Assembly (NCBI RefSeq): GCF_011303555.1
Contig: NZ_CP049868.1
Coordinates: 1,674,001 to 1,738,000, forward strand
DNA length: 64,000 nt
From: Pedobacter sp. HDW13
Lineage (GTDB): Bacteria > Bacteroidota > Bacteroidia > Sphingobacteriales > Sphingobacteriaceae
Direction: 5' to 3'
The notes beneath the pieces were generated by a model. It made no database searches. It was not told the origin of the DNA and saw only the letters and a list, made by a program, of their open reading frames with translations. Position numbers and translations under genes: made by a program. Of this stretch, positions 48,949-54,440 are shown piece after piece; the first letter of the stretch is position 1, and every line of letters begins with the position of its first letter.

Positions 48949-50004
48949 CTAAGCCAAGATATTTTGAGCAATGACTTTTTCCGTTTTTTGAATAGTTTCG
49001 TATTGCTCATAAGTTTGGGCTAGTCTCTTTTTAATTTTAGAAATCAAAAATCGTGGAGATAGGACTTTAACACATTCTCCAAAGCCCAGAATCTCCCGTT
49101 CCAATTCGTAGTTCAATACCACATCGATTCTAAAAATTGTTGTTTTATCGTTTTTTGACAATATCATCTGTGATGAATGCAGTGGTTTGGTCACAACATA
49201 TGGCGCATGATAGTTGGCAAATTCTAAGATTACCTTCTGTGCCCGGTCTTTCTCGTTTTTGCTCACGCCAATCAAATCTTCATAGTAGCGATCAAAATCT
49301 ACCCCTTCATAAGCCAAAAATTCTTCGTTTGGCAGTTCCTGAAATTCGACAATACGATCTAAAGCCAGATTTAAGATCCCAGGACGTTTCTTTGCTTTGC
49401 AAATCAAAAACCAGCGGTTTCTGTATTCCTTTAACAGGTATGGATAATAAATTCCCTGTTGCGCCTGCTGTGCCTTAAACGATTTATATTCAATCAGCAA
49501 CGAACGCTTATTTAACACGGCCTGGTAAAGTGAAGGGATGCACTCCAGTCCTTTTACCAACTTATTGCTTTCTAACTGGATGTTATTGCCACTTTGCTTG
49601 GTCGATTTGTAAAGGTTGTTCTCCAGACGGGCAATCATATCGCTCATTTCGTCGAAATAATTAAAAGCGTTAAACTGTTTCAATACACCAACAATTTCTT
49701 TCATTTTATCTACATCGGCATGGTTAATCTGCGCTTTTGTTATGCTAAAACCTGGATCTTCATAAGCATAAAACCGCTTATCTTTTACCACAATCGGTGC
49801 ATTATAGCCGAGTTTATCACTCCTCATCAATTGGATGTCGGCTTGTATGGTACGTTTACTTACGCCACTGGTTATGCCTTCCAACTCGTAAAGGGTTTCG
49901 GCAACCTTTTCAATAATATCGTCGAGTGTCCATTTACGGAAACGGTTTTTCAAACAATCGTCGATGGTTTTATAACGGATGAGGGCTAATTTATTAATGG
50001 CCAT
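48949..50004 (-). CDS. WYL-domain transcriptional regulator, divergent from the RtcB operon
   Basis: A 351-aa protein. Residues about 1-70 form a DNA-binding HTH (WTLDDIIEKVAETL, VSKRTIQADIQLM). The WYL domain at about 165-240 contains the core YYPYLLKEYRNRWFLI, and a WCX-type C-terminal extension follows. WYL domains bind nucleic acids or nucleotides and act as sensors in DNA-damage and defence regulators. Its gene is divergent from the SPFH-HEPN-rtcB genes across a 1,028-bp gap that holds two operator-like palindromes, so it is the likely regulator of that operon. GH32 lies 57 bases downstream and may be cotranscribed. Confidence 0.88.
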   Translation of the reverse strand: MAINKLALIRYKTIDDCLKNRFRKWTLDDIIEKVAETLYELEGITSGVSKRTIQADIQLMRSDKLGYNAPIVVKDKRFYAYEDPGFSITKAQINHADVDKMKEIVGVLKQFNAFNYFDEMSDMIARLENNLYKSTKQSGNNIQLESNKLVKGLECIPSLYQAVLNKRSLLIEYKSFKAQQAQQGIYYPYLLKEYRNRWFLICKAKKRPGILNLALDRIVEFQELPNEEFLAYEGVDFDRYYEDLIGVSKNEKDRAQKVILEFANYHAPYVVTKPLHSSQMILSKNDKTTIFRIDVVLNYELEREILGFGECVKVLSPRFLISKIKKRLAQTYEQYETIQKTEKVIAQNILA

Positions 50005-50189: not shown

Positions 50190-50210
50190 CTACGCAATTC
50201 CTCCGCGCAG
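50190..50210. promoter_or_regulatory. Operator-like palindrome, copy 2
   Basis: Same layout as 50078-50098: CTACGCAAT, six variable bases, GCGCAG; starts are 112 bp apart. It lies 9 bases upstream of the possible -7 element at 50220, overlapping the -33 region, which suits a repressor or a closely contacting activator. Confidence 0.65.
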
Positions 50211-50219
50211 TGGTGCTGG

Positions 50220-50227
50220 CATCTTTG
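50220..50227 (+). promoter_or_regulatory. Possible -7 promoter element (CATCTTTG) of the SPFH-HEPN-rtcB operon
   Basis: CATCTTTG matches 7 of 8 bases of TAnnTTTG. No -33 element is visible, but operator copy 2 takes its place. If used, the transcript begins near 50233 and has an 800-base leader before the SPFH gene. Confidence 0.4.
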
Positions 50228-50369
50228 TAATGTCGCCAGTCGATAATGAAGTTCTTTGAAAAACATCAACAATAAATTGCTGATTTACTACAAAAAATAA
50301 ACTGTTTCAATAATACGCGCTCTCAGCCATGTTGCTCATTTTTGAACAGCATCTTACAAACACGAAGCC

Positions 50370-50395
50370 CCCTGTTCCGAATATGCGGAACAGGG
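50370..50395 (+). other. Strong hairpin in the leader region
   Basis: Perfect 10-bp stem CCCTGTTCCG / CGGAACAGGG with a 6-base AATATG loop. There is no T tract after it, so it is more likely an RNA structural element than a terminator. Confidence 0.75.
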
Positions 50396-50463: not shown

Positions 50464-50560
50464 GGCAATACTACGTAAAACTGATCCCAGTTGTGGGTTT
50501 CGGTATAGCCCCAAAGTATTCGTGCAATTGCATGGAATATGCTGATCAGGATTATGATAG

Positions 50561-50711
50561 TTTGTCTAAACACGTTGTGTGGGTGGGTTCGATTCCCGCT
50601 TCCGGAGAGATCCGGAATAACTCAGGGGTAGAGTAACAACCAAATATGCAGGTTCGAATCCTGCTTCCAAGAGTATTGGAATAGCTAATTGGTAAGCGTT
50701 TAGGACTCAAA
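50561..50711 (+). ncRNA. Tandem circularly permuted tRNA-like RNA
   Basis: Module 1 (50574-50640): GTTGT anticodon-stem-like strand, 4-base variable region, T stem GTGGG/CCCGC with loop TTCGATT (50583-50599), acceptor strand TTCCGGA, GAGA tetraloop, acceptor strand TCCGGAA (50600-50617, 7 bp), T-A linker, D arm ACTC/GAGT with loop AGGGGTA (50620-50634), one base, then ACAAC pairing with GTTGT. Module 2: T arm GCAGG/CCTGC with loop TTCGAAT (50648-50664), 6-bp acceptor hairpin TTCCAA/TTGGAA (50665-50681), T-A, D arm GCT/AGC with loop AATTGGTA, then TTTAG (50699-50703) pairing with CTAAA at 50566-50570, which encloses module 1. TTTG/CAAA adds an outer helix. Spacing in module 1 equals that of real tRNA. 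A normal tRNA gene is excluded because the 3' half precedes the 5' half. Confidence 0.75.
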
Positions 50712-50784
50712 ATCCAAAACAAAAAAGAAGAGTAACTTTTCAAAATGCTCAAAAAAACGCCTTGTAAAACCGCATTCTGCTTAA

Positions 50785-51032: not shown

Positions 51033-52130
51033 ATGAAAAGAGTAACCATTAGCACCAATTATGTTGGATTGGTGTTTAAAAGAGGAAAATTAAAAGACGC
51101 ATTAACTGAAGGAACTTACTGGTTAGGTTTCGGCGAAGAGATTACGCTATATGATATGGGAAAAGAATATTTTTTCACCCTTGCCGAATTAGAAGTATTG
51201 TTAACCAACACTTATTTTACCGATCTGGTGCACGTAGTAGATGTGGCCGATAACGAATTGGCACTGGTTTACCGTAACCAAAATTTTAAAAGTGTTTTAA
51301 CAGCAGGTAATCATGCCATTTGGAAAGGTTTATCGAGCTATACTTTCGAAAAGGTAAATATTAGTAACATGGAAATCGAAGCCAATATTGATCGAAATTT
51401 ACTGGAAAAAGCCCCACTGGTAAATTACATCAGAGCGTTTAAAGTGGAGTCGTATGAGCAAGCCTTATTGTTTATCGACGGTAAATTCGATAAAGTACTG
51501 GAGGCCGGAAATTACATGTACTGGAAAAACGCGACTACCATTAATGTAGTTAAAACCGATATGAGGCAATTGAACCTGGAAGTAGTGGGACAAGAAATCT
51601 TAACGAAAGATAAAGCCCAATTGCGAATTAACTTTAGCGTGCAATATAAAGTGGCCGATATCATTAAAGCCTTACTGGAGAACAAAGATTTCGATAAGCA
51701 ATTGTACGTTACCATGCAATTGGCATTAAGAGAATCTATCGGCTTAATGACTTTTGATGAGTTGATGGAAAGCAAAGAGAAAATTGCCGCACAGGTAATG
51801 GATTTAACCCTTACCAAAGCAGCAGATTTAGGTATAAAACTAACAAACTGCGGTGTTAAGGATATTATTTTGCCAGGCGATGTGAAAGAGATTATGAACC
51901 AGGTTTTAATTGCCGAGAAAAGGGCACAAGCCAATATCATTACCCGGAGAGAGGAAACGGCCTCGACCAGAAGTTTGTTAAATACAGCCAAATTAATGGA
52001 AGAAAATGCCATGCTGTATAAGTTGAAAGAGATGGAGTATGTGGAGAAAATCGCAGAAAAAATCAACAACATCAGCTTATCTGGAAGTGGTCAAATTGTA
52101 GACCAATTAAAGCAAATCTTCGTAAAATAA
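51033..52130 (+). CDS. SPFH-domain (slipin/band 7-like) protein with three N-terminal repeats
   Basis: A 365-aa protein. Three related beta-rich repeats occur at about 12-32 (VFKRGKLKDALTEGTYW), 76-98 (LVYRNQNFKSVLTAGNHAIW) and 144-165 (LFIDGKFDKVLEAGNYMYW). The SPFH/band 7 domain covers about 170-290 and is followed by a charged coiled coil (AEKRAQANIITRREETAS). Typical slipins begin with a membrane hairpin, but none is visible here. SPFH proteins form large oligomeric cages or scaffolds. It is the first gene of the operon with the HEPN protein and RtcB. Confidence 0.88.
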   Translation: MKRVTISTNYVGLVFKRGKLKDALTEGTYWLGFGEEITLYDMGKEYFFTLAELEVLLTNTYFTDLVHVVDVADNELALVYRNQNFKSVLTAGNHAIWKGLSSYTFEKVNISNMEIEANIDRNLLEKAPLVNYIRAFKVESYEQALLFIDGKFDKVLEAGNYMYWKNATTINVVKTDMRQLNLEVVGQEILTKDKAQLRINFSVQYKVADIIKALLENKDFDKQLYVTMQLALRESIGLMTFDELMESKEKIAAQVMDLTLTKAADLGIKLTNCGVKDIILPGDVKEIMNQVLIAEKRAQANIITRREETASTRSLLNTAKLMEENAMLYKLKEMEYVEKIAEKINNISLSGSGQIVDQLKQIFVK

Positions 52131-52188: not shown

Positions 52189-53007
52189 ATGGAAACAGAA
52201 ATATTAAAGGCATTTAAGATATATAAAAGAATTGTATTTACTGCTGATACAGACTTAAGCTTTTGGAAGTCATTTTTAGAAAGAGCTATTGATGAGTATT
52301 GCATCAAAAACCCAAATAACATTGAATTGTTTACGTCTGTATTTTGTGCGTATAATTTCAATTTAGATAAAAATGAAGGATATTTGAAATCAAGTGATAA
52401 CATTCGATTAATTGAAAAAAACAATTTAAAAAAATGTGGTGATGACTTTTTTTCTTCCATTTCCCTTTTGTTAATCTTAAAGAATTACGTTGCAATTGAG
52501 ACATTCATTCTACAAGCTATTCATATAAAATATTTTTATTTACAAGGAAGCTTGCTTGGAAATAGAAAAGCAGCCAGTAGAATTAATAATGAAATAAAAG
52601 CTTATTTAAAAGAAATAAATATTAAGAGTGATAACAAAAATAATCGTCATATTATTGAGTTTTTAAAGTCAAAATCAACATCTATATCATCATTTTTATC
52701 TTCTAAAATTAGAGTGGACTTAGATACTTCGTGGGGAAATTTTTTTGAAATCATTTCAATACTACGTAATATAATTGCTCATCAAGACCAAGTTGTCACA
52801 TCAGATACAATAAATGAAATAAAGTCTAAAGGCAAAATCTTATTTAAGAATCACTTCATAACCAAAAAAAAAGAAGTGGATAAAGCAAACTTCACATTAA
52901 ATATTAAGAACACTTCAAATTTCCTAGCCTTTTTTAATGACTTTTCCTTAAACATAGTGAAGCTAATGTTTGAAGAAAAAGACTTAAAGTTTTTAGGAAT
53001 GAATTAA
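52189..53007 (+). CDS. HEPN-domain protein (putative ribonuclease), AT-rich
   Basis: A 272-aa helical protein. The motif R-N-I-I-A-H at residues 193-198 (Arg193, His198; RX4H) in FFEIISILRNIIAHQD fits the HEPN catalytic signature, and an earlier amphipathic helix with Glu (YVAIETFILQA, about 100-110) resembles the MAE_28990/DUF4145-like HEPN group. Many HEPN proteins are metal-independent RNases that cut tRNA or rRNA; some are inactive or binding-only. Codon use is clearly more AT-rich than in the genes around it, suggesting separate origin. Stop is 9 bases before rtcB, so it is in the same transcript. The nuclease role is inference. Confidence 0.65.
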   Translation: METEILKAFKIYKRIVFTADTDLSFWKSFLERAIDEYCIKNPNNIELFTSVFCAYNFNLDKNEGYLKSSDNIRLIEKNNLKKCGDDFFSSISLLLILKNYVAIETFILQAIHIKYFYLQGSLLGNRKAASRINNEIKAYLKEINIKSDNKNNRHIIEFLKSKSTSISSFLSSKIRVDLDTSWGNFFEIISILRNIIAHQDQVVTSDTINEIKSKGKILFKNHFITKKKEVDKANFTLNIKNTSNFLAFFNDFSLNIVKLMFEEKDLKFLGMN

Positions 53008-53016
53008 AACACTAAA

Positions 53017-54440
53017 ATGAAAAACAACATAGCAGGAAAAGACCTAATTGAAACAGGTTATACCGAAGGAAAAATACTGGGCCTGGCTTTGAATATCCTG
53101 AAAGCAAGCTTTGCAGATGCCGAAGAAAAAGAATTGCTGGCCATATTTAAAAAAGTAAAAGAATACCCGGAAAGTTTTTTGGATGATCCGGTTTTAAATA
53201 CGCTGGCTACAGCCATGATTGAAGAAATCAATGCACCAAAAGATGAAACTATTGAATTGGTAAGCGATGCGAAACCCTATGCAGTATTTGGCCCCGATTA
53301 CATTGAAGAAGGTGCGCGAAACCAAATGGATACTGCCATGAAACTGCCGGTAGCGGTAGCGGGCGCTTTAATGCCTGATGCGCACCAAGGTTATGGCCTG
53401 CCTATTGGTGGTGTATTGGCCACCAGAAACACCATTATTCCCTACGGAGTGGGCGTTGATATTGGCTGCCGAATGGCCCTTAGTATCTTTAATATCCCCG
53501 AGAAACATTATTTCGGTAAGGACGACATGTACAAACGCGAATTAATTGCCTTTACCAAATTTGGTGCAGGACAAAACTTCCGTGGGACAGAGAAAGCTGA
53601 TCACGACGTTTTAGAAAATGAAGCTTTTAACAGCACACCTTTCTTAAAAAACCTGCACGGAAAAGCCTGGGCGCAGTTGGGTACATCGGGTGGTGGTAAC
53701 CACTTTGTAGAATGGGGAATTATAGATTTTGCAGAACGAGATGAAGTTTTAAATATCGATAAAGGCCGTTATGTAGCTTTGCTAACCCATTCCGGTTCGC
53801 GTGGATTGGGCGCAACCATTGCTGATCATTATACCAAACTGGCGAAAGGCATTTGTAAACTACCTAAAGAGGCAGCAAATCTGGCCTATTTAGACCTTAA
53901 CACAGCTGAAGGGCAAGAATACTGGATTGCCATGAACTTAGCCGGCGATTATGCTTCGGCTTGCCATGAGGTGATCCATAAAAGGTTAACAAGGGCCATT
54001 GGTGCCAAGGTTTTAGCCAAAGTAGAAAATCACCATAATTTTGCCTGGAAAGAACTAATTAATGGCGAGGAAGTGATTGTTCACCGTAAAGGTGCCACAC
54101 CGGCTGGTAAAGGCGTAATGGGAATTATCCCGGAAGTATGACAGCTCCAGGATTCTTGGTAAGGGGAAAAGGTGAGATGAGTTCGATCAATTCAGCTTCG
54201 CATGGTGCGGGTAGACAAATGAGTAGAACGAAAGCGATCCAATCGATCACCAAATCGGATATGAAAGCCATTTTGAAAGACCATAACGTTACTCTAATTG
54301 GTGCCGGTTTAGACGAAGCCCCAATGGCTTATAAAGATATCCACAAAGTAATGGCTGCACAAACCGAATTGGTTGATGTGGTGGCTAAATTCGAACCTAA
54401 AATGGTGAGAATGGCTGATGACGGAAGTAGGGAGGATTAG
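53017..54440 (+). pseudogene. rtcB: RNA ligase RtcB, split by a one-base frameshift
   Basis: RtcB joins RNA 2',3'-cyclic phosphate (or 3'-phosphate) and 5'-OH ends using GTP and Mn2+. It repairs cleaved tRNA and rRNA. Motifs present: PDAHQGYGLPIGGV, GVDIGCRM with metal-binding Asp/Cys, GTSGGGNHFVEW, THSGSRGLG, ENHHNFAW and HRKGATPA. The frame stops at 54141 because one G is missing at 54132-54133; the next frame (54138-54440) continues SMTAPGFLVRGKG and contains the guanylated His in SASHGAGRQ. Joined length is about 475 aa. If the indel is real, the ligase would be inactive. Confidence 0.88.

Follow-up and report, generated by a model that had tools for sequence, protein, structure and literature searches.

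A predicted tandem tRNA-like RNA encoded upstream of an SPFH gene in Pedobacter and other Bacteroidota

What is encoded in the gap between the divergent WYL gene and the SPFH gene of Pedobacter sp. HDW13, and what could it do there? In the stretch of DNA that we analysed (64,000 nucleotides, referred to as the window), the initial annotation placed two circularly permuted tRNA-like modules at 50561..50711, upstream of an SPFH-HEPN-RtcB operon. Comparison with related loci indicates that a structured RNA is almost certainly encoded here, from about 50488 to about 50750, so that the proposed position stands but the proposed length falls short. The RNA is predicted to start with a two-hairpin 5' domain, to continue with two permuted tRNA modules, and to finish with an H-type pseudoknot on the 3' side (Table 1). 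A literature search, with the key Y RNA papers and Burroughs & Aravind 2016 outside its reach, returned no description of such an RNA.

Table 1. Features of the RNA locus, in window coordinates
Feature	Position	Strand	Basis
Divergent WYL/WCX protein, likely regulator	48949..50004	-	PF13280, PF25583
Palindromic operator-like site, TACGCA-type half-site followed by a CGCGCA-type one	50190..50210		pattern count
Predicted -7 promoter box CATCTTTG	50220..50227	+	rRNA genes of the genome have TACCTTTG
Conserved boxA-like motif GTTCTTTGA	50251..50259	+	pattern count
5' two-hairpin domain (model R1): first hairpin with conserved UUUCNGNAUAG, second with AGUNUU...AAUAUNCUGA	50488..50547	+	covariation
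Module 1, permuted tRNA with its opening in the anticodon loop (GTTGT/ACAAC stem, T arm, closed acceptor, D arm)	50574..50640	+	sequence and covariation
GTTGT/ACAAC stem	50574-50578 and 50636-50640	+	window sequence
T arm 1, GTGGG TTCGATT CCCGC	50583-50599	+	window sequence
Closed acceptor 1, 7 bp, GAGA loop	50600-50617	+	window sequence
TA and D arm of module 1	50618-50635	+	window sequence
Module 2, permuted tRNA with its opening in the variable loop	50648..50719	+	sequence and relatives
T arm 2, GCAGG TTCGAAT CCTGC	50648-50664	+	window sequence
Closed acceptor 2, 6 bp, GAGTA loop	50665-50681	+	window sequence
TA and D arm of module 2	50682-50698	+	window sequence
D arm of module 2	50684-50697	+	sequence comparison
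Anticodon-arm-like hairpin of module 2, CTCAAAA loop	50699-50719	+	supported in relatives
H-type pseudoknot: S1 AGAAG/CTTTT, S2 AGTA/TGCT, A-rich linker	50726..50750	+	permutation test
SPFH/Band 7 (slipin family) protein	51033..52130	+	PF01145, 1.7e-28
Slot gene with RNIIAH motif	52189..53007	+	no family match above cut-off
RtcB RNA ligase, two overlapping ORFs (53017-54141, 54138-54440)	53017..54440	+	PF01139 on both

Architecture and covariation of the RNA

All structural elements named in the initial annotation were found in place when the window sequence was read again. The acceptor strands of each module are joined through loops of 4-5 nt and there is no CCA end. The RNA does not follow the order of a tRNA gene, which runs from the 5' acceptor strand through the D, anticodon, and T arms to the 3' acceptor strand and leaves the acceptor open, and ARAGORN predicts no tRNA gene in the 64-kb window. 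Across Rfam 15, searched with the window and seven relatives, RF00005 is the sole family at cut-off, with a partial match at 50614-50668 (30.2 bits, cut-off 29). The chimeric pairing of acceptor 1 with acceptor 2 on which this match relies was rejected, being absent by eye in more distant relatives; both acceptors begin with TTCC in the Pedobacter group, where 4 bp of such pairing are possible. Thermodynamic folding of the single sequence is only mildly unusual (z -2.14), so the case for the RNA rests on comparison.

The modules of the family share a consensus: a T arm carrying UUCGA, an acceptor whose two strands are connected through a short loop, then two bases and a D arm. In an alignment of 20 homologous modules, 90.1% of the cells are paired in this structure, and 15 of the 21 pairs show double-sided changes. 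The covariation score of 0.476 compares with 0.225 in shuffled alignments and is reached by none of 500 shuffles, which ignore the relatedness of the sequences; one of the five measures, the number of further pair types, shows no difference from the shuffles (203/500). When the partner columns are slid by one to three positions, the pairing falls to 39-50%. The GTTGT/ACAAC helix, at the anticodon position, is 66% paired in the 20-module alignment, where it is partly misaligned. Tested separately on 66 other loci, drawn from the best 80 of 559, it scores above every one of 1000 permutations (mean of 11.64 vs. 8.61). The RNA block as a whole is conserved above the flanking DNA on both sides in six of six pairs.

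A further hairpin follows the D arm in 56 of the 72 parsed last modules and is missing from the other 16 (loci from the best 80 of 559); most last modules are thus tRNA mimics with all four arms and an opening in the variable loop. The hairpin has a 7-nt loop in 46 of the 72, of which 43 have U33 and 42 a purine at position 37, and shuffled sequences give a mean of 5.5 and a maximum of 11 of 72. The anticodon triplets vary, and among first modules such an anticodon arm is found in 9 of 66 (best 80 of 559). The parsing left 8 modules unparsed, and its 45 distinct stems are best complements, some of which arise by chance. In the window, the hairpin reads TTTAGGA CTCAAAA TCCAAAA with one mismatch; in two near relatives of the same type (L169 and L170), the parsing script did not score it as a hairpin.

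The closure of module 2 around module 1 by CTAAA/TTTAG, which the initial annotation had also proposed, finds no comparative support. The stem is foldable, but TTTAG overlaps the anticodon-arm-like hairpin, and an outer closing stem of this kind does no better than chance, with 584 of 1000 permutations reaching the observed value in 58 loci (out of 66 with at least two modules and an R1 match among the best 80 of 559; the other 8 were left out).

The 5' domain, described by our covariance model R1, spans 60 nt, ends 26 nt ahead of module 1, and is common to all 19 family loci. In these 19 sequences, 94.4% of the cells are paired, and the covariation score is 0.611 against 0.219 shuffled (0/500). 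An alignment of 75 named loci (best 80 of 559), which was fitted to the R1 model, gives 94.0% paired cells and 0.572 against 0.193 (0/500), with a weaker result for the count of pair types (47/500 shuffles). For the predicted pseudoknot, the S2 strands are complementary within genomes far above mismatched genomes, a value that none of 5000 permutations reaches; this test was anchored on S1 and used 26 of 30 RNAs, the near-duplicates G061, G053, G122, and G083 being left out. Splits set by hand in 30 of 33 RNAs were chosen to pair and serve as illustration only, and no pseudoknot was assigned in the other three (G087, G016, and G137). An unanchored search for the pseudoknot was noisy, often no better than shuffles, and was dropped.

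The stems of the modules are conserved and covary in related genomes with the same gene order, which decides in its favour the comparative refuting test that the initial annotation had set itself. Its view of a maintained structure is borne out by compensatory changes across the modules and by the covarying extra domains, and the covariation likewise supports the architecture of a tRNA mimic that has an elbow and lacks a CCA end.

Distribution, upstream signals, and neighbouring genes

In a sample of 151 genomes from the family, SPFH orthologs (more than 50% identity) occur in 19, Pedobacter sp. HDW13 included, and the window protein is 96% identical to its P. ghigonis homolog. All 19 loci carry one to three modules, with the first T loop 314-495 nt upstream of the SPFH gene. 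The R1 model matches 21 of the 151 genomes, comprising its 19 source genomes and two weak cases (G017 and G077), which were judged false by gene context only. Among 395 genomes of the class, R1 matches 22, three within the family and 19 outside; of the latter, 14 then carry modules, with the first T loop 88-105 nt from the start of R1, and the weak matches L125, L126, and L128-L130 have no module and were judged false. SPFH orthologs at E 1e-60 are present in 26 of the 395 class genomes, all with modules upstream. Sixteen of them are R1 matches with modules, and the other 10 have modules (best E per locus of 2.5e-9 or lower) and weak R1 matches, 8 of these below E 0.01 and the remaining two at 0.075 and 0.4. 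A draw of 395 genomes from the phylum gave three weak R1 matches outside the class, none with modules; the phylum matches L261-L264, which have no module, were rejected.

A wider set of named loci, the best 80 of 559, was chosen by SPFH alignment alone and covers Pedobacter, Sphingobacterium, relatives of Chitinophaga, Aquimarina, Kordia, Tenacibaculum, Roseivirga, Bacteroidales, and others. R1 lies upstream of the SPFH gene on the same strand in 75 of these 80, always with modules between the two: two modules in 60 loci, one in 9, and three in 6. Two further loci (L243 and L244) have modules without R1, bringing the RNA to 77 of 79 testable loci among the best 80 of 559; L237, with 62 nt upstream of SPFH, was not counted as testable. 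The two named loci with SPFH and no RNA are L214 and L215, and a lone module match at -58 in L215 (E 0.009) was discounted. At L214, a tRNA-Tyr gene (2887-2971) sits directly before SPFH, at the place expected for the RNA. The SPFH gene is thereby the most constant partner of the RNA, and we regard this sequence-based tie as nearly as firm as the RNA itself. One class genome, G404, carries the RNA without an SPFH ortholog at E 1e-60 and has a divergent RtcB, which implies that the partner need not be SPFH. In this genome (locus L139), the RNA precedes a 214-residue protein and the RtcB gene.

Several signals precede the RNA. The palindromic operator-like site resembles TACGCA-N7-TGCGTA, and its general form, NRCGCA-N3..10-YGCGYA, precedes the RNA in all 19 family loci (none in ten shuffles) and in 47 of 75 named loci from the best 80 of 559 (at most 2 in ten shuffles). 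The divergent WYL protein presumably binds this site. We read the CATCTTTG box as a promoter; a scan of the 320 nt 5' of the RNA gives the pattern [TC]AnnTTTG in 38 of 75 loci, compared with 13 of 75 in one shuffle (best 80 of 559). A boxA-like pattern is present in 49 of 75 of these loci, against 3 of 75 in one shuffle, and GTTCTTTGA is a single copy in the 64-kb window. Since the exact motif is missing from the four rRNA leaders of the genome, a role in antitermination is unproven. Between the promoter-like box and the RNA, the window also has a strong hairpin, CCCTGTTCC...GGAACAGGG, at 50370-50395; by eye, this stretch has left traces in G088 and G145 and is missing in G110, G102, and G105.

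The proposed link to an RNA-repair operon agrees with the neighbouring genes, among which RtcB and RlaP are frequent. Within the proposed SPFH-HEPN-RtcB operon itself, SPFH is the most constant member, RtcB is frequent but not constant, and the HEPN label is not supported. RtcB is found in 19 of 19 family loci, in 8 of 14 class loci (missing from 6), and in 55 of the best 80 of 559 loci, being missing from the flank in 25; these flanks extend up to 3 kb and are shorter at 10 loci with contig ends. It is a single ORF of 472-493 residues in 18 of 18 family relatives, and the split ORF of the window may be a lesion or a sequencing error. At the junction, blastn gives a length difference of 1 nt from L169. 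The slot gene between SPFH and RtcB, labelled HEPN in the initial annotation, has no match above cut-off in Pfam, NCBIfam, or PADLOC and retains the RNIIAH motif only. Its protein occurs in 2 of 19 family loci, G094 alone among the 18 family relatives, and in none of the best 80 of 559 loci. In the family, this slot otherwise holds two nucleotidyltransferases in 5 loci, a gene with a phosphoesterase match below cut-off in 1, and nothing in 11. Both nucleotidyltransferases of P. zeae match RlaP (PF10127), and paired RlaP-type genes are found in 15 of the best 80 of 559 loci.

WYL genes accompany 18 of 19 family loci, the window included, and 44 of the best 80 of 559. At 23 of 77 loci (best 80 of 559), the RNA is preceded by genuine tRNA genes on its own strand, 90 in total and up to 11 in one locus; none lies on the other strand, and 3 are downstream of SPFH. 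These upstream genes suggest that the modules probably derive from tRNAs and make processing of the RNA plausible. Arrays of 4-11 tRNA genes stand before the RNA-SPFH unit in L198, L208, L217, L218, L220, L234, L236, and L244. Some ARAGORN tRNA calls bridge modules inside the RNA (L228, L229, L233, and L234), four calls falling within RNAs in the count over the named loci, and public tRNA annotations that bridge these modules are likely artefacts.

Possible functions of the RNA

Comparison of sequences shows the architecture, the near-constant pairing with SPFH, the frequent RtcB, RlaP, WYL, and tRNA neighbours, and the rarity of Rsr; the function is read from context, namely, the tRNA arrays, RtcB, RlaP, and a precedent in Anabaena described in the accessible part of PMC10272220. 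The RNA likely helps cells cope with damaged tRNAs. Our first choice, to which we assign a probability of about 0.4, is a trans-acting role as an unchargeable tRNA mimic, within an SPFH-based ribonucleoprotein that would repair or survey tRNAs. The WYL regulator would leave the palindromic operator when translation is under stress, allowing synthesis of the RNA. Enzymes that recognise nicked tRNAs, such as RtcB and possibly nucleases or PNPase as with YrlA, could dock on the elbows and the anticodon loop of the RNA, and the closed acceptors would bar it from charging and from translation. Through its 5' domain or its pseudoknot, the RNA would be tethered to a ring of the neighbouring SPFH protein, which would hold it in the complex, taking the place that Rsr has for Y RNAs. 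Several observations speak against this reading: at nearly all loci the position of the RNA, in what is probably the SPFH operon leader, suits a cis element equally well; G404 has the RNA and no SPFH ortholog at E 1e-60; two of the best 80 of 559 loci have SPFH and no RNA; RtcB is missing from some flanks; and a few genomes have Rsr beside the RNA.

We rank second, as the main rival but a less likely reading, a cis-acting leader, in which the mimic stays in the SPFH-RtcB mRNA, binds an encoded protein or products of tRNA damage, and sets expression. A tRNA-like fold is used for regulation in the thrS leader/operator, where a product of the operon binds it and exerts feedback, and our RNA shares the leader position, lying 5' of SPFH on the same strand in 75 of 75 R1-positive loci (best 80 of 559) with promoter- and operator-like signals ahead of it; the two probably share one transcript. 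However, the RNA and the SPFH start codon lie about 280 nt apart, the stretch between them is the less conserved of the two in six of six pairs when set against the RNA, and the RNA stays where the downstream genes vary. The RNA of G404, which has no SPFH, and the same-strand tRNA genes upstream at 23 of 77 loci (best 80 of 559) also speak against a leader.

The initial annotation also considered a decoy, ligand, or sensor, and a decoy or damage sensor for anticodon nucleases seems improbable to us. The intact anticodon loop of the last module would here be the bait, and its cleavage would spare tRNAs or signal an attack. RtcB seals breaks in anticodon loops, and the varied triplets of the last-module hairpins (56 of 72, best 80 of 559) would suit such a bait. 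Against this, the hairpin is rare in first modules (9 of 66) and absent from 16 of 72 last modules (best 80 of 559), and no nuclease was found as a regular neighbour of the RNA. The Salmonella YrlA RNA, moreover, is not cut by its nuclease, as far as the available text of PMC7790460 describes it.

A bolder form of our preferred reading, to which we give little credence, is a vault-like particle, in which a soluble SPFH protein with repeats would form a ring or shell around the tandem mimic RNA, and the two would capture broken tRNAs for sealing by RtcB and RlaP under translation stress. SPFH would here replace the Ro scaffold, and the RNA, with its origin in tRNA arrays, would form a separate class. 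The protein has the SPFH/Band 7 domain characteristic of stomatin/slipin proteins, and stomatin is its match in the PDB (8e-18). In stomatin/slipin proteins, a membrane hairpin precedes this domain. The predicted model (pLDDT 80.7) has mostly beta strands ahead of it, with beta repeats at about residues 10-41, 75-109, and 142-176, the SPFH domain from about residue 180, and less confidently predicted helices at the C terminus. The major vault protein (MVP) is characterised by N-terminal beta repeats, an SPFH shoulder, and a cap helix. Alignment with stomatin-like chains begins at residue 112, whereas 6 of 10 MVP rows align from residue 2-4. For the N-terminal part alone (pLDDT 86.5), MVP is the top Foldseek match in the PDB, where no match is significant, and the best BFVD matches are viral SPFH proteins (E 7e-4). 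In VIA-align, MVP is a poorer fit for the first repeat than is the first SPFH subdomain in erlin, prohibitin, and HflK, and because it resembles this common subdomain, a vault-like shell remains a weak, model-based hypothesis.

A divergent Ro-binding Y RNA of the YrlA type, working with an unlinked Rsr, is very improbable. The permuted T arm, closed acceptor, and D arm are the same, and RF02553 (YrlA) matches 50547-50666 with an E-value of 3.9e-5, but its 32.4 bits lie far below the Rfam cut-off of 69. The alignment lacks a Ro-type basal stem, giving several non-standard basal pairs and forcing T arm 2 into the 3' strand. RF02553 was rejected as a family-wide detector because it also matches real tandem tRNA genes and the E. 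coli and B. subtilis controls, and we therefore built our own covariance models. TROVE is absent from the Pedobacter sp. HDW13 genome, from all 19 family carriers, and from 13 of the 14 other carriers in the class, the exception being G190. It is present in 9 other family genomes, 8 of them with an RF02553 match about 1 kb downstream. By eye at six loci, the Rsr-linked Y RNAs of the family combine modules with GGTGYCGTA...ACTTGTTGCC-type ends, and such ends were not seen in the SPFH-linked RNAs. Rsr lies near the RNA in 4 of the best 80 of 559 loci, and Rsr-like genes near it in G190, L186, and L203 are in favour of a Y RNA; in G190, however, Ro-type RNAs and the SPFH-linked RNA appear side by side as separate units. 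There, at L141, WYL, Rsr, and a run of Ro-type Y RNAs are followed by the SPFH-linked RNA and SPFH. In Kordia (L235 and L239), an Rsr-like gene lies downstream of SPFH, with more module matches about 3.9 kb past the SPFH start.

Finally, the reading as debris of a decaying tRNA array, to which the real tRNA genes upstream could point, is refuted by the compensatory changes throughout, by the two extra covarying domains that are not tRNA, and by the occurrence in many families.

If the trans-acting reading is true, one group of SPFH proteins gains an RNA partner, the tRNA-like module known from Y RNAs is seen to serve in the absence of Ro, and Bacteroidota possess a widespread RNA-repair locus of tRNA array, tRNA-mimic RNA, SPFH, RlaP, RtcB, and WYL. 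This locus could be tested in culturable Pedobacter and Sphingobacterium; as it is single-copy and described by covariance models, its expression, binding, and deletion could be assayed directly.

Comparison with known systems

The closest relative in structure is YrlA, which shares the tRNA-like module, likewise has no CCA end, and can also be linked to RNA-repair genes. By the two features tested on sequence, the basal stem and Rsr, the RNA is not a Y RNA. Unlike YrlA, it has two or three modules in 66 of 75 loci (best 80 of 559), usually an anticodon arm in the last module, a 3' pseudoknot, and a two-hairpin 5' domain in place of the Ro-binding basal stem; Rsr is usually absent, and SPFH is the partner. 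For YrlA, the part of PMC8394870 available to us describes a basal stem bound by Rsr and a tRNA-like domain bound by PNPase.

In red algae, permuted tRNA genes place the 3' half before the 5' half and mature to working tRNAs with CCA. Our RNA shares this order of halves and differs in that its acceptor strands are joined by short loops.

Two bacterial systems bring similar genes together. The Salmonella rsr-yrlBA-rtcBA operon, in the portion of PMC7790460 consulted, likewise has a tRNA-like RNA beside RtcB in a regulated RNA-repair operon. It has Rsr and RtcA and is controlled by RtcR (sigma54, as given in the consulted portion of PMC9879122), whereas the locus described here has SPFH, a WYL gene, an operator-like palindrome, and in some cases RlaP. 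In Anabaena, TrcR represses an operon of 26 tRNAs together with rtcB and a slipin gene, and under translation stress the trn operon and rtcB are freed from this repression (PMC10272220, accessible part). The likeness lies in a single repressor that governs a tRNA array along with rtcB and a slipin gene; in Anabaena, the genes are scattered, the regulator is of the RHH type, and the accessible part of the paper does not mention a tRNA-like RNA. The eukaryotic vault, composed of MVP, TEP1, vPARP, and vault RNA according to the consulted part of PMC13347060, is the system with which the shell hypothesis compares the locus. The tRNA arrays that precede some RNA-SPFH units resemble the stress-induced trn operon of Anabaena, as portrayed in the same part of PMC10272220.
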